A stretch of 12,755 nucleotides of DNA from assembly GCA_002323775.1 (NCBI GenBank), contig DCPV01000198.1, positions 1-12,755 on the forward strand, read 5' to 3'. Positions within the stretch are counted from its first letter, which is position 1, and every line of letters starts with the position of its first letter. This DNA comes from Firmicutes bacterium UBA1535 (lineage in GTDB: Bacteria > Bacillota > Clostridia > Tissierellales > Sedimentibacteraceae). Position numbers and translations under genes: made by a program. Below are positions 58-11,798 of this stretch, in pieces. The notes under the pieces are model-generated. The model did no database searches and had not been told where the DNA came from. It was given only the letters and a program-made list of their open reading frames with translations.

Positions 58-957
58 TTATATTGCTGTAGGTACGTTGCCGGCAATTAAAAAATTTACT
101 ATTCCGAAAGTAAATTTAATTGGTATGCAAAAGGCATTTTTCATCCTTATAATCTTCTTATCTCTGCCAAAAATCTGTGGTGTCAAGTCGAGTTCCATTC
201 TATCTGCATTTGACATATTTACGCAGAATATACCATTAGTGAGATTCATGAACTCACTAAACGATGCCTTTACATATTCATCAAGCTCAGGATACTCCTC
301 ATCGCTAAATCTGGATGCAAATTTAATCAATGTATTATTGTCTGCTTCTAAGGCTGTATATGCGCTGAATTCGCCCTCTATTCTTTGACAAGTAAAATTC
401 TTGCACTCAAAATCCCTTATTGTGATTGATTTCATTGGAATAAAATCATCTCCAACAAATCTGACTAAGTTTTTAAATAACAATGAAATATATTCGGTGT
501 AAAGTGCTGCATCTTCAAACGCTTCAAATTCATAGAAATTTTCTATAACTTCAAGCATTTTTTCACTTTGAGTTAATGTGAAGTCTGTATCTTTAATTTT
601 ACATTCTTTTTTGTATTCTTCTATAGCATTTTCAAAACGGCTGTTGGTCATATACCCCTTATCTACGAGTGCTTGTCCTAGTAAAATGTATCCGATATTT
701 TGGGACTTTAAGAGTTCTGAAACCTGATCATCTGTCAAATATCCCATCTCTACAGCAATGCTTCCGAACATTTTATCAATTCTTGCTTGCAGTCTGTGAA
801 CCTTATTAACTTGGTCTGCTGTCATATATCCAGCATTGATAGCAAGGACTCCCAGCTTTAATCTAACATTTTTTTGAAATTCTAAAACTTCTATTAATTG
901 GTTTATTGTAATATATTCTTTGTTTAATAAATAGCTGCCAAAAAATTGAGTATACAT
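58..957 (-). CDS. CheX-like phosphatase domain protein with four N-terminal MshEN-like repeats
   Basis: This 299-residue soluble protein has no signal peptide or membrane segment. Residues 5-115 are four tandem repeats with an exact 29-residue period: glycines at 7, 36, 65 and 94, each followed by a (G/E)Y(I/M/L)T turn. They resemble the half-motifs of the MshEN (GspE/PilB N-terminal) domain. A linker of about residues 116-150 leads to a C-terminal domain of the CheX/CheC type. There Glu235-x-x-Asn238 followed by Asn241-Gly242 matches the E-x-x-N motif by which CheX dephosphorylates CheY-P. The gene starts 2 nt after the CheY-like stop codon, with an AAGGATGGTGA ribosome site inside the upstream gene, so translational coupling is likely. 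Its probable role is phosphatase for that receiver. The CheX assignment is fairly firm. The MshEN assignment is by pattern only: the Arg of the RLG signature is absent (Lys34 in repeat 2), so cyclic-di-GMP binding is uncertain. Confidence 0.82.
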   Translation of the reverse strand: MYTQFFGSYLLNKEYITINQLIEVLEFQKNVRLKLGVLAINAGYMTADQVNKVHRLQARIDKMFGSIAVEMGYLTDDQVSELLKSQNIGYILLGQALVDKGYMTNSRFENAIEEYKKECKIKDTDFTLTQSEKMLEVIENFYEFEAFEDAALYTEYISLLFKNLVRFVGDDFIPMKSITIRDFECKNFTCQRIEGEFSAYTALEADNNTLIKFASRFSDEEYPELDEYVKASFSEFMNLTNGIFCVNMSNADRMELDLTPQIFGRDKKIIRMKNAFCIPIKFTFGIVNFLIAGNVPTAI

Positions 958-959
958 TA

Positions 960-1340
960 TTATTCACCATCCTTTAGCAGTTTACCTACGACCTTTTTAA
1001 CATCTTCTGCAAAAACAGGCTTATGTATAAAGTCAAAGGCACCAGCTTCTATTGCTAATTTTAAATATTTTTGTGTAATTACTGAGGAAGCTATAACAAC
1101 CTTTGCCCCTGGATCAGAATTAGTTATCTCTTTTAAAGCTTCGACTCCTGTTATTTCAGGCATGATAATATCCATGAAAACTATATCAGGCGTAATCTCC
1201 TTATATCTACTTATCGCCTCTCTACCATTCGAGGCATAGGATATATCTGTACATCCCATTGAATTTAGAATATCGCTAATTTGCTTTCTAACCAATATAG
1301 AGTCATCGCTAATAAGCACTTTTAAATCGTTTATAAGCAT
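960..1340 (-). CDS. CheY-like single-domain response regulator
   Basis: This stand-alone receiver domain has 126 residues and no output domain. With the ATG at 1340, the acidic pocket is Asp12-Asp13, the phosphoacceptor is Asp57 (in FMDIIMP), the switch hydroxyl is Ser85 or Ser86, and the conserved lysine is Lys107 (in HKP). These positions match E. coli CheY closely. TTG at 1352 and GTG at 1349 are in frame and would add four or three residues. I prefer 1340 because GGTGA lies five bases upstream of it, the same arrangement as the next gene, and because the domain then begins normally. The next gene encodes its likely phosphatase. No histidine kinase or chemoreceptor is nearby, so the input is unknown. 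It could serve chemotaxis or another phosphorelay. Confidence 0.9.
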   Translation of the reverse strand: MLINDLKVLISDDSILVRKQISDILNSMGCTDISYASNGREAISRYKEITPDIVFMDIIMPEITGVEALKEITNSDPGAKVVIASSVITQKYLKLAIEAGAFDFIHKPVFAEDVKKVVGKLLKDGE

Positions 1341-1352
1341 CTTTTTCACCAA

Positions 1353-1733: not shown

Positions 1734-3233
1734 TTATAAATTATAAATCTTAGAATATTTGTCTTTTAGATAATTTACATAATACATAGGGTTAAAATCT
1801 TCCCCTGTTGCAAGCTTTAATATCTCCTTAGGATACTTTGTGCTTCCATACTTATGTATTTTCTCCTTAAGCCACTCATTAATTTCCTTAGTTGTACCGC
1901 TTTCAAGTATTTTCTCAATATCAATTTCCTGCTTCATCTTATTGTATATTTGAGCTGCATATGCAGAGCCTAGAGCATATGTTGGGAAATATCCAAACAT
2001 TCCGCCCGCCCAATGTACATCCTGAAGAACTCCTTGACTTACACTAGGCACATCAATACCTAGATATTCTTTTACCATTTTATTCCAAACTGTAGGTAAT
2101 TCTGAAACTTCAACCTCATTATTCAAAATCATTCTTTCGATATCATATCTTATCATGATATGCAAAGGATAAGTAAGCTCATCAGCTTCAACTCTTATAA
2201 GTGAGTTTTCAACCTTATTTATAGACTTATAAAAATCTTCAAGACTTATATCCTTTAATTGCTCCTTAAATATCTCCTGAAGCTTGCTATAGTGTATTTC
2301 CCAGAACTTATGGCTTCTTCCTATTATGTTTTCAAAAAATCTGGATTGAGACTCGTGCATTGCCATAGAAGCACCATCACCTACATTAGTATCATCAAGC
2401 TCAGGGTCTATCTGCTGATTATATGTAGCATGACCAAGCTCGTGGATTGCTGAAAATATGCTTGAAGTAAACATATTCTCATAGTAGTGAACTGTAAATC
2501 TTACATCCTTTGTAGAAACACCTGAAGTAAACGGATGCTCGCTTTCTTTCATCAATCCGTGATTTGTGTCATAGCACATAACCTTTTGTATATATTTTGC
2601 AAATTCAATCTGATCTAATCTAGGATAAGTTTTGCTTTCAAAACTATTGTTGTACTCTAATTTTTTGCTAGTAATCTCCTTCACAAACGGAACTAATTCT
2701 TTCTTTAAAATTCCAAAAAATTCATCATACTCAACAGTAGTGAATTCAGGCTCGAAATCATCAAGCAAAAGGTCATAGCCTTTAAGCTTTTCAGTTTCTA
2801 GGTATTTAGCAAATTTTTTTCCGTATGAGATTATTTCCTCCAAGCTAGGTTTAAACATTTCAAAATCATTTTTTGTCTTTGCCTCAGCCCATGTATTTTC
2901 GCTTGTTGCTAAAAGCATTCTGTATTGTACATATTCTTCCATAGGTATCTTGAGAATTTTGTCTACACTCTTTTTTGCCTCTACAATTTCGTGAGCTAAA
3001 ACACTATCAAGCTTATCTTTACCTGCATATAGCTTATTTATTATATCTATACGCTCCGATGAGGTTTGTAGCTTATATGATTCTTCTGATAATACGCCCG
3101 TATATTTTGCTCTTTCTCCAAAGCAACCCTTTGGAGCTTCAGTAGCTGAATCCCAGCTTATCATCCACATAGCGTAATGATATGCTTTAAGCCTTTTCCT
3201 ATACTCCTCATATTTACTAATTAATTCCTTCAT
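1734..3233 (-). CDS. M32-family zinc metallocarboxypeptidase (carboxypeptidase Taq type)
   Basis: This 499-residue cytoplasmic enzyme removes C-terminal residues from peptides with broad specificity. All M32 signatures are visible in order: HPF (233-235), DVRFT (243-247), the zinc motif His264-Glu-Leu-Gly-His268, His293-Glu294-Ser-Gln with Glu294 as third zinc ligand, IRVEAD (346-351) and GVLQDVHW (401-408). Length is normal for the family, and there is no signal peptide. The ATG at 3233 has an ideal AGGAGG seven bases upstream. It lies 72 bp after the chimeric proS gene with no terminator between, so the two may share a transcript. A peptide-degrading role fits the peptide and amino-acid lifestyle suggested by iadA and the YfcC-type carrier. 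Confidence 0.95.
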   Translation of the reverse strand: MKELISKYEEYRKRLKAYHYAMWMISWDSATEAPKGCFGERAKYTGVLSEESYKLQTSSERIDIINKLYAGKDKLDSVLAHEIVEAKKSVDKILKIPMEEYVQYRMLLATSENTWAEAKTKNDFEMFKPSLEEIISYGKKFAKYLETEKLKGYDLLLDDFEPEFTTVEYDEFFGILKKELVPFVKEITSKKLEYNNSFESKTYPRLDQIEFAKYIQKVMCYDTNHGLMKESEHPFTSGVSTKDVRFTVHYYENMFTSSIFSAIHELGHATYNQQIDPELDDTNVGDGASMAMHESQSRFFENIIGRSHKFWEIHYSKLQEIFKEQLKDISLEDFYKSINKVENSLIRVEADELTYPLHIMIRYDIERMILNNEVEVSELPTVWNKMVKEYLGIDVPSVSQGVLQDVHWAGGMFGYFPTYALGSAYAAQIYNKMKQEIDIEKILESGTTKEINEWLKEKIHKYGSTKYPKEILKLATGEDFNPMYYVNYLKDKYSKIYNL

Positions 3234-3305: not shown

Positions 3306-4547
3306 TTAATACGCTCTTGCAATATAAACCATATGCTTTGCTTCTTTGCCGCAGAAATGGCATTTATCTGATAACTGCTCCTGTTCAAACGGCATACATC
3401 TTATTGTTGCACCTGTTTCTTCTTTTAGCTTTGCTTCACATTCCGGACAGCCACACCACATAGCTTTTGCAAATCCCGGTTTGTCTGTTATGCTTTTCTT
3501 GTAATCCTCGTAGCTTTCCATAGTGTATGTATGTGCTTCCCTGTGCTGTCTTGCTTTTTCTAACATATCCTTTTGCATCGTTTCTAGCATTGATTTTACA
3601 GTCTCGCCAATATTATCTAAAGAAATAATTTCTTTTTCCAGCTTATCTCTCCTTACCGCTACCGCTTGGTTGTTTTCTATATCCTTTGGTCCTATTTCTA
3701 TTCTCATTGGATAGCCTTTCATTTCGTATTGGTTAAATTTCCAGCCCGGTGAGTTAGCAGTATCATCATCTAATTCAACTCTTATTCCCTTTGATTTTAG
3801 CTCGTCAAATAAAGCATTAGCCTTTTCTAATACTCCCTCTTTTTTCTGAGCAATCGGTATTATAACAACCTGTGTTGGTGCAACTCTTGGCGGTAGTACC
3901 AGCCCTCTGTTGTCACCGTGAACCATTATAAGTCCACCTATTAATCGTGTGGATATACCCCATGATGTATGATAAGGATATTCTTGCTTTCCTGTTCTTC
4001 CTAAGTAATTTATATCAAAGGCTTTTGTAAAATGCTGCCCTAAGTTATGAGAAGTACCCGCTTGAAGCGCTTGACCATCGTGCATAAGTGCTTCCATTGT
4101 ATACGTAGCAAAAGCTCCGGCAAATTTTTCTTTTTCACTTTTTTGTCCCACAACAACAGGCATAGCAAGTAAATCTTCTGCTACCTCTTTATATATCCCA
4201 AGAATTTTCAATGTTTCTTCTTGAGCCTCATCATATGTTTCATGGAGAGTATGGCCCTCCTGCCATAAAAATTCTGATGTTCTTAGGAATGGACGTGTTG
4301 CTTTCTCCCAACGCACTACACTGCACCACTGATTGTAAAGATATGGTAAATCCCTGTATGAATTTAACCATTTACTGTACATATTGCAAATTATAGTTTC
4401 TGATGTAGGTCTAACGCACAATCTCTCTCCAAGCTCTGTGCTTCCTCCATGTGTAACCCATGCAACCTCCGGAGCAAAGCCCTCTACATGCTCTTTTTCT
4501 TTATTTAATAAGCTTATAATTATTCCTAATAATCTATCAATTTTCAT
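3306..4547 (-). CDS. proS: Chimeric, N-terminally truncated proline--tRNA ligase (ProS type 3)
   Basis: Residues from about 12 to 413 are a clear archaeal/eukaryotic-type prolyl-tRNA synthetase. Visible features are RPTSE (46-50), class II motif 2 (Arg79 to His98, with [13 protein letters not shown]), motif 3 (about 196-223, [11 protein letters not shown]), an anticodon-binding domain, and a C-terminal zinc domain with Cys365, Cys367, Cys370, Cys384, Cys396 and Cys399, ending in the family's terminal Tyr. The family is normally about 480 residues, so about 67 N-terminal residues are missing, including motif 1 (dimer interface). In their place the protein starts [11 protein letters not shown], which is typical of WYL/YafY-type helix-turn-helix regulators. 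The join falls at a shared Leu-Leu-Asn-Lys (4500-4511). The reading frame is otherwise intact. Charging of tRNA-Pro is unlikely without motif 1, so a second proS elsewhere is expected. No T-box is visible upstream. The start site is a weak AAAAGG then ATG. Functionally it is probably a pseudogene or an assembly chimera. Confidence 0.85.
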
Positions 4548-4700
4548 ATCTTATTTACCTTTTCACAAATATTCTACAAGAGTATCAACTGCTTATCCAT
4601 CATGCCAAATATTCAACTATATCTCGTCTGTACATCAATCAAAAATAATCATCTTTTATCTTACAGCTTTTGAAATTATTTTATCACAATATGTATTATC

Positions 4701-4714
4701 TGTAAATATTTACA
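4701..4714. repeat. Perfect 14-bp palindrome, possible operator
   Basis: TGTAAATATTTACA is a perfect inverted repeat in the 216-bp gap between the uvrA-like stop codon and the chimeric proS start. It is about 155 bp upstream of that start. A possible weak minus-strand promoter (TTGATT at 4637-4642, TATAGT at 4616-4621, 15-bp spacer) lies between. It may be an operator for the regulator gene whose first codons remain fused to proS, or chance in AT-rich DNA. I do not recognise the binding family. Confidence 0.35.
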
Positions 4715-4763
4715 TTTTATATTTATTTTGTGTCTATCGCTTGAAAGCATTATTATATAAAAA

Positions 4764-7613
4764 TCACTCAATATATTTTCTTAAATATCTTCCTGTATGT
4801 GATTTATCAGATGCTATAACTTCCTCCGGTGTCCCCTCTGTCACAATTTCTCCGCCATCTTCTCCTGCATCAGGCCCAATATCAATTATGTAATCTGCTG
4901 TTTTTATAAAATCCAGATTATGCTCTATCACCAGTACAGAATTACCAAGTTCAACAAGTTCATTTAAGGAAATCAGTAATTTCTCAATATCTTGTGTATG
5001 CAGTCCTGTAGTTGGCTCATCTAAAATATACATATTGCCGGTTTCTTTTTTTGTTTTTCCCAGCTCCCTTCCAAGCTTTAATCTTTGGGCTTCACCTCCT
5101 GACAGGGTCAAAGATGATTGTCCCAATTTCAGATATCCAAGTCCCAGCTTATTTAATACTTGAAGCTTATTATGAATAAGCTTCACATCTTTAAAAAACT
5201 CTATGCCTTCTTCTATTGTTAGCTCCAGTACCTCAGCAATACTCTTTTCTTTGAATTTAACCTCAAGCATCTCATTTTTATATCTCTTGCCATTACATAC
5301 CGGACAAATAGTTGTGATATCCTGCATAAATTGCAGCTCCATCACAATACTTCCCTCTCCCGTACAGGTCTCACATCTTCCGCCTTTATTATTAAAGCTA
5401 AAACTTGAGATATCATATCCTCTGGCTTGAGCTTCCTCTGTATTGGCATATATTTCTCTTATCTTATCATAAATATTTAGGTAAGTTGCCGGATTAGAGC
5501 GTGAACTTCTTCCAATTGGGGATTGGTCAATATACCTTACATCTTTAATAAAATCAATCCCTTCAATTTTGTCATGTAGTCCGGGTTTTATTCTTGCATC
5601 ATATAGCTTTGAAGCTATCCCTTTATATAATATCTCATTTATTAAACTACTTTTCCCTGACCCTGACACACCTGTTATACACACAAAAACATCTAATGGT
5701 ATATTAAGATTAATATTTTTAAGATTATTTTCTCTTGCACCTTTAATCTTAATCCATTTCCCCTGTCCTTTACGCCTTAGTTTTGGAACTACTATTCCTT
5801 TCTTATTTGTCAGATACTGTCCTGTCAAAGATTTATCTGTGTTTATAACTTTTTGAATATCACCACTTACCATGATTTCTCCGCCATATGCACCAGCTCC
5901 CGGTCCTAGTTCAATAATATGGTCTGCACTTTTAATAGTTTCCATATCATGCTCAACCACTACCACAGTATTTCCAATATCTCTAAGCTTTTTTAATGCC
6001 TTGATTATTTTAAATGTGTCTTTCTCATGAAGCCCTATGCTTGGTTCATCTAATATATACAACATTCCCATAAGATTTGAGCCTATTTGTGATGATAAGC
6101 GTATTCTTTGAGTTTCTCCTCCCGAAAGTGAGTCTGCACTTCTGCCTATATTTAGATATTCTAGTCCTATTTCTGAAAGTGATACTAGCTTATTAAGTAT
6201 TTCGTTGATAATTTGTTGTGCACTCTCTTTTTTGTCATCTGGTACTTTTAGGTTTGTTAAAAATTTTATCAATTCTTTTATCTGTAAATTACATAAATCA
6301 TATATGTCTAAGCCATCTATCTTAACTAACAATCTTTCTTTCTTTAATTTTTTACCGCTGCAATCAGGACAAATATGGGAAGTAAATAGCTTTTCATTTT
6401 CTTTACTCTTAGACCCATCAGCTAAACCTTTTTTGTAGAGTCGTGTTACGTAATTCACTAATCCTTCATAGCTTACATATCTTCGTTTTTCCGCTTGCTC
6501 TCTTTCTCCGTCAGCCTTAAGTATCTCGTATCGTTCTCCATTAGTTCCAAAAAATATCACATCCTTTATTTTATCAGGAAGCTCCTTGAATGGCGTATCT
6601 ACGCTGAAATTATAATGCTTAGCAAGGCTATATAGCCTTGCTGCACCATTTTTATCACTTATACTAAATTGAGATACATACAGAGGGTCATTCCTCATAC
6701 TCTTATTTTCGTCTTTAACTAACAAATATGGCTCTGTCATTTTATATGTTCCCAAGCCTTGGCATGTTGAACATGCTCCACTGACATCATTTGCAGAGAA
6801 GTTTTTAGGCAGAAATTTATTTGCTATCATATTATGTTCGCAATTAATAAATCCCTTATTAAATTTATTTATTTCTTCTATTGAAATATCCTCGCTTATT
6901 ATCTTAAATCGCATTAAATTCTGACCTAATTCAGATGCCTTTTCTATCGCACTCGCTAATTGTTCATAGTTTCTTTTATTTACTGCAACTTCATCAACTA
7001 TTACTTCTATAAAATATGTTTCATTTTCCAATAATTCTATTTTATTTTTCATATTATGTACTTCGTCATTAACGATAATTTTTCTAAAGCCCTTATTTCT
7101 TAGCTCTGTTAATAAATAATCATAATTCTCGTCATATATTTTGCTCACAGGAGCAATAATTTCTATTCTAGTGCCTTCGGGAAGATTCAAAATATGCTCT
7201 GCTATCTGATTAGTTGGCTGGCTTTCGATTTTCTTGCTGCAAACAGGACAATGTGGAATTCCTAGCACCACATATAACAGCCTTATATAGTTAGATATAT
7301 CAGCCATACTTGCTACTGATGAACGTGGATTGACAATTCCCCTTTTCTGTGGGATTGAAATAACAGGGGATAATCCCATGACAATGTCAACATCAGGCTT
7401 TTCCATATTCATTATATTGGCTCTTGAAGAAGATGATATCGATTGTAAAAATCTTCTTTGTCCTTCACCATATAATATATTATAAGCAAGAGAAGATTTC
7501 CCAGACCCACTCACTCCTGTAACAACAGTAAGTGCTTCTCTCGGTATTTCAACGCTAATATTTTTTAAATTATTCTCTCTTGCTCCTTTTATGCTTATGT
7601 TTTTTCTTATCAA
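4764..7613 (-). CDS. uvrA: UvrA-family excinuclease ABC ATPase (likely paralogue, UvrA2-like)
   Basis: This 949-residue protein has two fused ABC ATPase modules. Module 1 has Walker [10 protein letters not shown] (33-41), signature LSGGETQR (496-503) and Walker B LYILDEPS (518-525). Module 2 has Walker [10 protein letters not shown] (648-656), signature LSGGEAQR (837-844) and Walker [11 protein letters not shown] (861-870), with His898. Zinc-binding cysteines are Cys122/125, Cys281/284, Cys415/418 and the DNA-contact finger Cys747/750/770/773. UvrA finds distorted or modified DNA and loads UvrB. The divergent sequence around the Walker regions ([20 protein letters not shown]) suggests a paralogue rather than the housekeeping copy, but residues 130-250 still resemble a UvrB-binding domain. 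The start is TTG at 7613: AGGGAG sits seven bases upstream, no ATG lies nearby, and the [10 protein letters not shown] motif begins at residue 9. It follows the nucleotidyltransferase gene by 58 bp and is probably cotranscribed. Related UvrA2/DrrC proteins protect against DNA-binding drugs. Confidence 0.93.
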
Positions 7614-7641
7614 ATTATATTCTCCCTTACTTTTCCTTTAA

Positions 7642-7673
7642 AGCTGATTTGTTAAGTAATGTAATAATCAGCT
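7642..7673 (-). other. Intercistronic hairpin overlapping the nucleotidyltransferase stop codon
   Basis: AGCTGATT (7642-7649) and AATCAGCT (7666-7673) form a perfect 8-bp stem with a 16-nt loop. The stem overlaps the TAG stop codon. Only a short TTT follows on the minus strand, so it is a poor terminator. It could stabilise the upstream message or lower expression of the uvrA-like gene. Confidence 0.4.
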
Positions 7674-8619
7674 ACATGTTATTATCAAAATCGTAAGAAT
7701 AAGCCGCCTCATCAAAGTAAACCTTACTTTTATCTAAAAGCTTTATTGACCCACTTGTTCTTATTAGTATTTTCTTTTCTGTAAGCCAGTTGTATACATC
7801 TGTAAGCTCATTCCCGTCATTACTGATATTGTACTTTCTTTTTATATATTCGTTGATTTCTGACGCTCCTCTAACTTCCCCTTCAGTTCTTAACCACTTG
7901 ACAATTGGTTCAAAAACAAGGTCATTTTTATCATCTAAGTATTTTTTACACTTTGATAGCTTGCTTTCTATACTTAATAAATCAACTTTACTGTTTACTA
8001 AATCAACATATATATCATTAAAGAAATCATAGTTCAGGTTTAAAGCCTGACTTTCAACCTCTCTGCATGGATATTGATTATTATAAGCTACCTCGATATT
8101 AGCTAAATTCTTCACTAATCTTAACATTACACTAAATGCTGATAGTGTATCTTCACTCAGCTTTAAAATTTTTTCTATTTTTTTTACACATACAACTCCA
8201 TAAATAGCAGCTTTTAATAAATTTTCTTCTTTATCTCTATTCCCTAAATCATGTTTTTCATTAAATAAGTTTTCTATAGCTTTATCTTTTGAATATATTA
8301 ACTTACTTTGCAACAGAACTGCTCTAAAGAAGCTCTGAGCATGCGGACTATCCACTAATTCAAAAAAATAATTTCTGCTATATAGTTCCACTTGAAAGTC
8401 TATATCATCTACAATAAGTGAATATTGATTATATATTTTCTTGCTGTTTTCCTTTGATATTAGCCAAATATCAATATCTGATTTTTCCCATAACTTACCG
8501 CTGACTATACTTCCATACGCAAATGCTGCGATTATGTTGCTATCCTCTTTTATTTTTTCTGCAAAAGCCTCTAAAGCTTCCTCATATTTATTTTTAATAT
8601 CTAATTTCTCAACTTCCAT
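7672..8619 (-). CDS. Nucleotidyltransferase-domain protein with apparent C-terminal winged helix
   Basis: This 315-residue soluble protein has an N-terminal polymerase-beta-type nucleotidyltransferase fold. Gly36-Ser37 is followed by Asp48-x-Asp50 (YGSIVSGKLWEKSDIDIWL), and Asp74 in a downstream strand is a candidate third metal ligand. A helical middle (about 130-230) follows. Residues 237-308 look like a winged helix: predicted helices around GASEINEYIKRKY and NELTDVYNWLTEKK, then a basic beta-turn. Such enzymes move a nucleotide onto a small molecule, RNA or protein; the substrate cannot be told here. It is not a clear match to AadA, LnuB or a MNT antitoxin. The ATG at 8619 has AAGGAGAGG upstream and a recognisable promoter at 8647-8677. 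It is the first gene of an operon with the uvrA-like gene, which hints at a stress or drug-response role. The winged-helix call is my reading of the pattern, not a search result. Confidence 0.8.
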   Translation of the reverse strand: MEVEKLDIKNKYEEALEAFAEKIKEDSNIIAAFAYGSIVSGKLWEKSDIDIWLISKENSKKIYNQYSLIVDDIDFQVELYSRNYFFELVDSPHAQSFFRAVLLQSKLIYSKDKAIENLFNEKHDLGNRDKEENLLKAAIYGVVCVKKIEKILKLSEDTLSAFSVMLRLVKNLANIEVAYNNQYPCREVESQALNLNYDFFNDIYVDLVNSKVDLLSIESKLSKCKKYLDDKNDLVFEPIVKWLRTEGEVRGASEINEYIKRKYNISNDGNELTDVYNWLTEKKILIRTSGSIKLLDKSKVYFDEAAYSYDFDNNM

Positions 8620-8806: not shown

Positions 8807-9994
8807 TTAATATCTTTCCTCAAATGTTCCGAACACAATTGGGGTTTTATCCTTAACCATCACTTTTCCTTTTGCAAGAACTGTATCTATGTCTAAATTT
8901 TTGTCTAGTAAACATAAGTCTGCATCAAAGCCTTTTTCTATTTTTCCTTTGTTTTTTAGTTTAAAGGCTTTAGCTGGATTAGATGTCAAAGCTCTTATTG
9001 CAATTTCAAGAGGGATATTTTGTTTTTTTACAGAATCCTTTATTGCCTTTATTAAACATCTCGATGTTCCTACTCCCAGGCCTACTAATTCACCTTTTTC
9101 ATTAAATACAGGCAAGCTTCCTTGCCCATCCGATGTAAGCGTGAAGTTGTCCATACTCACATTTTCTTCCATAAGTCTTTTTAGCCCTTTGCTAAACGGA
9201 ACTTCACCATCTAGTTTTTCGTTGTAATCAGGGTCTTCACTTCCTGTAAAATCAATATACCCACCTTTTTTAGCATATTGCACGCATTTTTCAAAAAGCT
9301 CTGGATTTCTGTTCACATGTGTTGGTACAAATTGAGTTATAGGAATTTCTGTCTCAGAAACAATTCTTTCAAGAAGTTCAATCTGTCTTTTCCCATCTCC
9401 TAAATGGACATTTACTACTCCTGCCTTGCCCGACAACATTCCAGCAACTCTTGCATCAGCAACTGCTTTTGCAAACTCATCAAATGAAGGTTGGGATGAT
9501 CTATGGTCAGATATTGCAACTTCTCCGATTCCGATTATTTTGTCAATAGCAATTATATCCTTCATTATTTCGCCGGTTATAGTTTTTAGTGGCAATCTAT
9601 ATGAACCTGCATAAATAAAGGTTGTTATACCTTCTTCTTCTAAGGCTTTTGCTTTTGCTAGCAATGACATTAAATCTCTTGTTACTCCATCTGTTCCCAA
9701 GCATCCTATTACAGTTGTAACTCCAGATTTTGTAAGTGAGCTAAGTGTAGCTTCGGGAGTTCTTGTTACAAAACCACCCTCTCCGCCGCCTCCCAAGAGA
9801 TGAACATGAGAATCAATAAATCCCGGAACTGCAATTTTACCACTTCCATCAATTTCATTGAATTCTACATCACAATTTAGCTCAATCGAAATATTATCTT
9901 CAACAGTTGCAATTTTATTTCCAATTATCAAGATGTCTTTTTTACCAATATACTCCGGTTTATAGACATCTACATTTCTTATTATTGTTATCAT
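8807..9994 (-). CDS. iadA: Isoaspartyl dipeptidase (beta-aspartyl peptidase)
   Basis: This 395-residue cytoplasmic amidohydrolase cleaves beta-aspartyl (isoAsp) dipeptides left by breakdown of damaged proteins. The binuclear metal site is visible: His63-x-His65 in IDSHVHLLGGGGEGG, His197 (VNVHLGDG), His226 (PTHVNRN) and Asp289 (TSDGQGS). These correspond to E. coli His68, His70, His201, His230 and Asp285. The bridging residue is Glu158 (IGIGEVAISDHR), where the E. coli enzyme has carboxylated Lys162. The ATG at 9994 is preferred because GGGAAGG lies nine bases upstream. An in-frame TTG at 10003 would sit directly against that site. It follows the YfcC-type carrier gene by about 61 bp, the expected partner for uptake of its substrates or products, and ends before a strong terminator. 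Confidence 0.95.
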   Translation of the reverse strand: MITIIRNVDVYKPEYIGKKDILIIGNKIATVEDNISIELNCDVEFNEIDGSGKIAVPGFIDSHVHLLGGGGEGGFVTRTPEATLSSLTKSGVTTVIGCLGTDGVTRDLMSLLAKAKALEEEGITTFIYAGSYRLPLKTITGEIMKDIIAIDKIIGIGEVAISDHRSSQPSFDEFAKAVADARVAGMLSGKAGVVNVHLGDGKRQIELLERIVSETEIPITQFVPTHVNRNPELFEKCVQYAKKGGYIDFTGSEDPDYNEKLDGEVPFSKGLKRLMEENVSMDNFTLTSDGQGSLPVFNEKGELVGLGVGTSRCLIKAIKDSVKKQNIPLEIAIRALTSNPAKAFKLKNKGKIEKGFDADLCLLDKNLDIDTVLAKGKVMVKDKTPIVFGTFEERY

Positions 9995-10055
9995 CCTTTT
10001 CAACCTTCCCTTTGTCTATTTATATATTCTCGCTTTGCAATCTATTTGTAAAATA

Positions 10056-11798
10056 TTATTGTAATCCCATCATTACTGCTATTACAATTATTATCGTACC
10101 AATTAGGAATAAGAAGCCCTGCATTTTAATCTGCTCTTTAGCCCATTTAGCCCAATCAATTCTTGCAACACCTAGAACGCCTATTAAGCTTGCTGATACT
10201 GGAGTAAATGCGTCAACAAAGCCAGAACCAAGCTGATAAGCAAGAACTGAAATTTGTCTTGATACTCCTATCAAATCTGATAATGGTGCCATTATCGGCA
10301 TAGTCAAAGCCGCTTGACCTGAATTTGATGTTACAACTAGGTTAAATAAGCTTTGGAATATATACATAAACCATGCTCCGATAACCGATGGAACTCCTGA
10401 TAGAAGTTGACCTATTCCATGTAAAACTGTATTCAGTGTAGAAGCTACATTGGCATTTGAGCCACCAAGTACTAACAGAATACCCTTAGCCATACCAACA
10501 ACTATAGCTGTACCAGCCAAATCTGCTGCTCCTCTTTGGAACGATGATGCCATCTCATTTATAGTCATATCATTTAATTTGAATATAATCGCTGTTATAC
10601 CGGTTACAAATCCCATTACGAAGAACTGCGAAGCAATTTCTGGTATATAGTAAGCCTTTTTAGTAACTCCATAGATTATCCAAATTAAAACTGCAAGCAT
10701 TTCTAAAAGTATAATTTTATGTCCTAATGTAAATTTAACTTGCTCTCCTGCTGTTTTTTCTAATCTTTCTCTAAAGTATCCATCACTTTCATATACTACT
10801 GAACTCTTTGGATTTTTTCTAATCTTTTCAGCATAAAACATTGTATATCCTGCTGCTAATGCCGTTACAACAACCCACATTATCAATCTGAATGTCGCTG
10901 CTGAAAGAACAGGAATTCCTGCTATTCCTTGGGCTATAGCTACGCTGAACGGACTCATCCATGATGCTGCATTTCCTACCTGCGAAGCAACATATGTAAC
11001 TGTAACCGCTACAATTGAGTCGTAACCGAGTGCTATTACAAAAGGTACCATTATCATTGAAAATGGAATTACTTCCTCTGCCATACCGAATGTTGCACCG
11101 CCTAGAGAGAATAAGAAGAATATTACAGGAAGTGCTAGTCTTTCGAGTCCTTTTGATTTGTTGATAAACGCATATATACCAGCGTCTATAGCTCCTGTTC
11201 TCATTATTATAGCGAAAGAGCCTCCAACAACTAATATAAGCGCTACTATACCAACTGCTGAGCCACCCTTATCTCCGGTAACTAGTCCCTCAAATACATA
11301 GTTTAAAAATCCAAAACCACCAAAGTCATCAGTTCCCCAAACCTTAGCCGTCTTGTGTAATTTTTTTGATGTGTCATACATAGACATACCGTACAAATCG
11401 TACAAAACATCATCATTAAGTCCTAACTCATCAAGCTGTGCTTGTGTCCATGTTGATGAATCTGTTGCTACAAACTCTTTTAATGCAGCTTGATCAACTC
11501 CTAGTTCTTCAAGCTTAGCAGTATCTTCAGAAAGAGTTTTTAAATGTTCAGATAAATTTTTAGTGTTTAAATTGTAGCTGTATCTGAACGAATCATCCTT
11601 TAAAACCGTTCTTGATTTTTCTGCTCCATTCGCATCAATATAAGTAACCTTATGAGTGCTGAATTTTCCTGCCGGCACGATAAATGTTAACAACCAGCTG
11701 AATAATACTACCGCAAAAATAATAGCATAGGTATGCGGCGTTCTGATTTTTGTCAAATCTTTAGAAATCTTTACTTGTTTGCCTTTATTTTCTTTCAT
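10056..11798 (-). CDS. yfcC: YfcC-family membrane carrier (DcuC/AbgT-like) with enlarged external loop
   Basis: This 580-residue polytopic membrane protein has hydrophobic segments at about 24-42, 180-199, 221-238, 245-265, 300-320, 360-378, 388-406, 427-446, 468-489 and 560-578. Family motifs are clear: GATFGMAEEVIPF (234-246), the QVGNAASWMSPF stretch (273-284), PEIASQFF (386-393) and SNSGQAALTMPIMAP (491-505). E. coli YfcC is 506 residues. Most of the extra length is in the loop after the first membrane segment (about 78-155), rich in acidic helices with two copies of LxELGhxxxxL (97 and 122). YfcC proteins are thought to carry amino acids, peptides or dicarboxylates; adjacency to iadA suggests aspartyl peptides or related amino acids. 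The ATG at 11798 has GGAGG six bases upstream. A weak promoter candidate is TTAATT (11854-11859) with TATAAC (11831-11836). Confidence 0.92.
   Translation of the reverse strand: MKENKGKQVKISKDLTKIRTPHTYAIIFAVVLFSWLLTFIVPAGKFSTHKVTYIDANGAEKSRTVLKDDSFRYSYNLNTKNLSEHLKTLSEDTAKLEELGVDQAALKEFVATDSSTWTQAQLDELGLNDDVLYDLYGMSMYDTSKKLHKTAKVWGTDDFGGFGFLNYVFEGLVTGDKGGSAVGIVALILVVGGSFAIIMRTGAIDAGIYAFINKSKGLERLALPVIFFLFSLGGATFGMAEEVIPFSMIMVPFVIALGYDSIVAVTVTYVASQVGNAASWMSPFSVAIAQGIAGIPVLSAATFRLIMWVVVTALAAGYTMFYAEKIRKNPKSSVVYESDGYFRERLEKTAGEQVKFTLGHKIILLEMLAVLIWIIYGVTKKAYYIPEIASQFFVMGFVTGITAIIFKLNDMTINEMASSFQRGAADLAGTAIVVGMAKGILLVLGGSNANVASTLNTVLHGIGQLLSGVPSVIGAWFMYIFQSLFNLVVTSNSGQAALTMPIMAPLSDLIGVSRQISVLAYQLGSGFVDAFTPVSASLIGVLGVARIDWAKWAKEQIKMQGFLFLIGTIIIVIAVMMGLQ

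Follow-up and report, generated by a model that had tools for sequence, protein, structure and literature searches.

Features of the locus

The stretch of DNA that we analysed (12,755 nucleotides; hereafter, the window) carries genes that all run in the same direction. Between a uvrA paralog and the gene for an M32 carboxypeptidase lies an open reading frame (ORF) whose first 11 residues resemble the start of a WYL/YafY-type regulator and whose remainder resembles a prolyl-tRNA synthetase (ProRS, encoded by proS); an in-frame TAA stands two codons upstream of its ATG (Table 1). The leader ahead of the ORF contained the ribosome-site-like sequence AAAAGG followed by 10 bases and the ATG, and no terminator-like site was found within it. 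Promoter-like matches on both strands of positions 4400–4900 numbered 6, compared with 2.9 (sd 1.6) in shuffled sequence; judging only from position, the regulator's promoter would drive the ORF. Searches of the window returned no tRNA or Rfam matches and no match to plasmids (near mode), and ProS, represented by protein P0001 (see below), was not found in viral contigs.

Table 1. Coordinates of features at the fused reading frame and its two neighbours
Feature	Position	Strand	Remark
Fused ORF: regulator-like start (residues 1–11) and ProRS residues 79–480 (P0001 numbering), in frame	3306..4547	minus	413 aa
ProRS body with 78 N-terminal residues missing; comprises the class II core, the anticodon-binding domain and the ProRS C-terminal domain	3309..4514	minus	
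Junction zone, from the end of codon 11 through the LLN codons	4503..4516	minus	
Codons 1–11, WYL/YafY regulator N-terminus	4515..4547	minus	regulator profile, tblastn, DNA matches on WYL starts
Leader running from the uvrA stop to the fused ORF, presumed to hold the regulator's promoter and a ribosome site	4548..4763	minus	
uvrA paralog, neighbour on the regulator side	4764..7613	minus	
M32 carboxypeptidase, neighbour on the proS side	1734..3233	minus	

The synthetase part

The NCBIfam profile TIGR00408 (proS_fam_I) matched residues 11–413 of the ORF at profile positions 68–475 of 475. The score of 536.4 bits exceeded the family cut-off of 437, placing the ORF in family I ProRS, and profile positions 1–67 had no match, so that the N-terminal catalytic part is incomplete. 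Pfam recovered tRNA-synt_2b, HGTP_anticodon and ProRS-C_1, with the core, anticodon-binding and C-terminal domains intact. The closest protein, P0001 (480 aa), was 95% identical over 97% of the query, and its alignment began at S79, which corresponds to ORF residue 12 and window position 4514. From residue 12 onward, then, the ORF is a family I ProRS. The original prediction had about 67 residues missing; the loss of the N-terminal part is supported, and the figure proved to be a net one, since 78 residues of P0001 are lost and 11 are gained. Several of the ProS matches at 82–84% identity carry the name Sedimentibacter.

The ProS body showed no sign of decay. We compared it with the 115 of 120 listed homologues that were 470–500 aa long. 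At columns conserved in at least 97% of sequences the ORF had 0 changes, as did 68 of the 115 relatives (mean 0.58), and it carried two residues absent from the relatives, for which the mean was 2.7 (n = 115). A body without decay implies that the join is either very recent or absent from the cell.

Residues 12–413 are thus like family I ProRS (TIGR00408; PDB 1h4q) in core, anticodon-binding and C-terminal domains; the ORF differs in having 11 regulator-like residues in place of the first 78. A caution for annotation follows: because the score lies above the family cut-off, the fused ORF would be annotated as a normal proline--tRNA ligase despite its missing first 78 residues.

The regulator-like start

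A regulator-start profile was built from 188 WYL/YafY proteins, of which 13 without an alignable start were left out (leaving 175, with 39 unique 11-mers). It was used to score every candidate start in open frames no shorter than 60 codons, in the relatives' loci and the window. Residues 1–11 of the ORF ranked 3rd, with a score of 33.3, among 44,683 distinct candidate starts. Apart from the ORF itself, all of the top 20 starts (19 of 19) read on as WYL-type regulators; two of these (L187, L175) had supplied queries behind the profile. The best non-regulator start scored 13.4, and some true regulators also scored low, down to 7.5. The ORF matched the characteristic WYL/YafY start MK[IV]xRLLxI; MKIDRLL opens 106 of the 175 alignable regulators, and MKIDRLLGI opens 81.

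Direct searches agreed. When six WYL proteins were compared with the window by tblastn, each of the six had its top match at 4547 (P0133 matched a second place equally well), with E values of 0.001–0.22 and ends at window residue 17–29. A DNA search with window positions 4500–4770 gave short matches in 53 of 249 genomes; at least 3 of the 60 listed matches (G023, G165, G022) sit on WYL start codons that had been located independently by protein. A regulator named Sedimentibacter hydroxybenzoicus DSM 7310 matched that of G165 at 100% identity; together with the Sedimentibacter names among the ProS matches, this places the window in the neighbourhood of that genus. On these matches we take residues 1–11 to be the start of a WYL/YafY regulator, a likeness beyond chance, as the original prediction had proposed. 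The likeness to WYL/YafY helix-turn-helix (HTH) regulators (Pfam HTH_11, WYL, WCX; e.g. P0190, which bears the name Sedimentibacter hydroxybenzoicus DSM 7310) is confined to these 11 residues. Pfam found neither an HTH nor a WYL domain in the ORF, whereas P0190 has both; the ORF lacks the HTH, WYL and WCX domains, and about 290 residues are absent.

The join at codons 11 and 12

On the minus strand, codons 1–5 of the ORF read ATG AAA ATT GAT AGA, codons 6–11 TTA TTA GGA ATA ATT ATA, and codons 12–17, across the join, AGC TTA TTA AAT AAA GAA. A switch into ProS at S-L-L-N-K had been predicted, and the P0001 alignment begins at exactly that serine. Among the 175 regulators, position 12 is occupied by I (92), T (37), V (20), L (14), M (9), and K, Y or Q (1 each), and never by Ser; the equivalent residue is Ser in 11 of the 11 ProS loci printed for comparison. 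Because Ser12 is ProS-like, the simplest reading would place the breakpoint at codon 11/12. If Ser12 derives from ProS, the sequence surely shared at the join comes to about 2 bases (AA). A longer shared run is possible and would require either a regulator with Ser12 or annealing across a mismatch.

The original prediction also invoked deletion through shared LLN codons. That proposal is now less sure: the leucine register is common among regulators (L13 L14 in 149 of 175, LLN at 13–15 in 35, LLNK[ED] in 10), while the serine is seen in none of the 175. The common LL(N) register favours an in-register alignment of both parents; a long exact microhomology at TTATTAAAT is weakened by the lack of Ser12 in these regulators. 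The hexamer AAGCTT does lie at the join (4510–4515) and, as also noted in that prediction, is common in the window (17 copies). Its suggested bearing on a chimera did not survive, since the proS of 2 of 11 relatives (L115, L119) naturally carries AAGCTT at the same codons; the site is no evidence for a HindIII cloning chimera.

The proS locus in relatives

We assembled 132 ProS loci, comprising the best 80 of a longer contig-search list, 32 more, and 20 wider stretches. In 129 of them the tblastn match to P0001 began no later than residue 35, and the other 3 start at contig ends; after removal of 21 loci contained in longer ones, 108 of 111 distinct loci matched from near the N-terminus. Among the best 120 of 7,995 protein homologues, 108 had the ESLL motif at an offset of at least 76, 10 had an ordinary start with the searched motif absent, and 2 were shortened (P0037, 422 aa; P0070, 454 aa), neither with a regulator start. 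Query residues 1–8 appeared in no ProS match among the matches listed (249 genomes, order-wide). Relatives sharing the regulator-start form of ProS, which would have spoken against a fusion, were looked for, and none turned up among those examined.

With five WYL queries, a WYL-like gene was found in 1 of the 132 loci, as a weak match (19% identity) about 7 kb from proS, and no locus of the 132 had a regulator immediately next to proS. Neither the uvrA nor the M32 peptidase of the window had a match in the 20 wider ProS stretches. Across 20 related genomes none of uvrA, M32 peptidase, YfcC, the CheX-like gene, the nucleotidyltransferase, the PsuG-like gene or IadA was found beside proS, except in G170, where distant relatives of YfcC (33%) and IadA (47%) occur near proS (L131). 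The closest relatives of the window's genes were mixed: G189 for proS (89%, among the matches listed), M32 peptidase (72%) and the CheX-like protein (58%); G163 for uvrA (64%) and the nucleotidyltransferase (55%); G171, G172 and G166 for YfcC (79–80%); G184 for IadA (72%); and G188 and G178 for the PsuG-like protein (67–68%). These genes are mostly accessory, and their mixed best relatives do not separate a chimera from a mosaic genome.

No clear second copy of proS was seen in the group. G187 has two copies near both ends of one 3.6-Mb contig (L126, L127), with neighbours repeated. One of these end sets is split into shorter frames, and the arrangement looks like an untrimmed circular overlap. 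In G171 a second, partly masked proS lies on a 12.8-kb contig with N-runs (L128) beside an intact one, which may be a duplicate or contamination. The ProS matches of G168 and G176 are interrupted by N-runs or a contig end.

Composition across the join

Composition was compared between disjoint 4-kb segments. Between the proS side and the two segments on the regulator side the distances were 0.228 and 0.186; those two segments were 0.277 apart. For 97 pairs within a locus the 5–95% range was 0.179–0.453; for 64 pairs of different loci in the same genome, drawn from just two genomes, it was 0.276–0.527; and for 1,984 pairs from different genomes it was 0.243–0.662. Both proS-side distances were thus inside the same-locus range and smaller than 0.276, the 5% point for different loci sharing a genome, and 2.7% and 0.9% of the 1,984 different-genome pairs were as close as 0.228 and 0.186, respectively. 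The sign of the GC skew did not change across the join. The difference between the two sides that would be expected of a chimera was not found, and composition speaks against a chimera of two species; a chimera within one genome or between strains is still compatible with it. Because the distances are as small as within one locus, the result leans towards a true neighbourhood.

Origin of the fused frame

A ProS whose N-terminus has decayed or been misread might merely resemble a regulator start by chance, and the regulator-like part is indeed just 11 residues long. This explanation is strongly disfavoured by the profile (3rd of 44,683, and well above the best unrelated start) and by the fate of the P0001 N-terminus: of its first 95 residues only the last 17 are present, at 4514–4464, and other matches in the window had E values of at least 2.9. 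We regard it as the least probable account of all. Hardly more credible is a functional fused protein, ProRS-like and missing its N-terminal part, placed under the regulator's promoter and serving a new role. The frame is kept, the start codon and AAAAGG are in place, and the domains that remain are whole, with their conserved positions unchanged, but there is no sign of selection for the fused form, which none of the relatives examined has, and an in-frame join is expected by chance in 1 of 3 cases. The loss also falls on a critical part of the enzyme. Motif 1 of the class II synthetases, which we take to be a helix and a strand ending YFPLLIP, presumably lies within the lost 78 residues, and P0001 residues 9–78 align to residues 5–74 of the ProRS chain 1h4q. 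In class IIa synthetases, which form dimers, motif I marks the dimer interface (PMC6366043). With the interface at motif I and the lost stretch aligned to 1h4q, loss of synthetase function would be expected, and a working fused protein is unlikely. One version would be a fusion gene at its birth, a motif-1-less ProRS on a WYL promoter with an intact proS kept, giving a synthetase-like protein under stress or ligand control; we consider this very improbable too. The one paper that a literature search listed is, judging by its title and the opening of its abstract, on something other than a fusion of this kind. Rather than a new kind of enzyme, the ORF is most likely either a false join or the product of a recent, gene-breaking rearrangement.

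A false join, created by chimerism in the assembly or the library and linking two loci of either a single Sedimentibacter-like genome or two very close strains, has in our judgement slightly better than an even chance of being the explanation. A WYL/YafY regulator downstream of uvrA would have contributed its leader and first 11 codons, a family I proS everything from codon 79 on, and a similar AT-rich stretch in the same register (xLLNKE / SLLNKE) would have helped the false join. The living cell would then hold an intact proS and an intact regulator, both elsewhere, and we infer that the join is absent from it. ProRS is essential. In favour of a false join count the regulator parentage of residues 1–11, the ordinary N-terminus of ProS in the relatives examined, the undecayed ProS body and the lack of this uvrA and M32 peptidase in the 20 wider ProS stretches; an essential single-copy gene is not expected to lose motif 1, and the group offered no clear second copy. 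Counting against a false join, Ser12 occurs in none of the 175 regulators, so that the two parents may share too little exact sequence here for assembly to have linked them through common k-mers. Chimeric contigs are known to arise in assembly when related genomes have k-mers in common (PMC7299287), and the putative case here resembles such metagenome contigs in that two unrelated genes meet at a short similar stretch. Nearly as likely as a false join, and a serious possibility, is a real and recent rearrangement, in which illegitimate recombination at short similar stretches broke a spare copy of proS. Either the remainder of the regulator and the first 78 proS codons would have been deleted, or a proS fragment would have moved behind the regulator; the product would be a dead or dying ORF, with an intact proS elsewhere charging tRNA-Pro. 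Composition, strand and skew agree on the two sides of the join, with composition as near as within one locus. The LL register is common to both parents (149 of 175 regulators, and LLN in 35), a recent event fits a ProS body without decay, and the surroundings of proS do change, as in G189, whose gene neighbours are unlike those of other relatives. Against a real rearrangement stands its need for a second intact proS, since the G187 pair is an apparent contig overlap and the G171 pair is ambiguous. Moreover, a regulator adjoins proS in none of the 132 loci, and searches of the window for a regulator remnant or a proS N-terminus gave only weak matches. If the join is real, the ORF would show an essential gene just after recombination at a very short match had broken it or given it a new promoter.

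Neighbouring genes

At window positions 58–1352 (minus strand), a CheY-like regulator stands ahead of a second protein that has a weak CheX match and carries an MshE-type c-di-GMP-binding motif. Of 20 related genomes, only G189 and G164 have full-length relatives of this CheX-like protein. The UvrA paralog is divergent: its best full-length match shows 44–47% identity in 18 of the 20 genomes and 64% in G163. It is preceded by a Pol-beta-type nucleotidyltransferase (window 4764–8619 for the two genes, minus strand). The pair is kept in G163 (L168, 8503–12340), and the two WYL matches of that genome lie on other contigs than this pair. IadA, an isoaspartyl dipeptidase, adjoins a YfcC/DcuC-type transporter at 8807–11798 (minus strand). 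The two are also neighbours by position in G166, G170, G171, G172, G173, G184 and G189, with their order reversed in G170.
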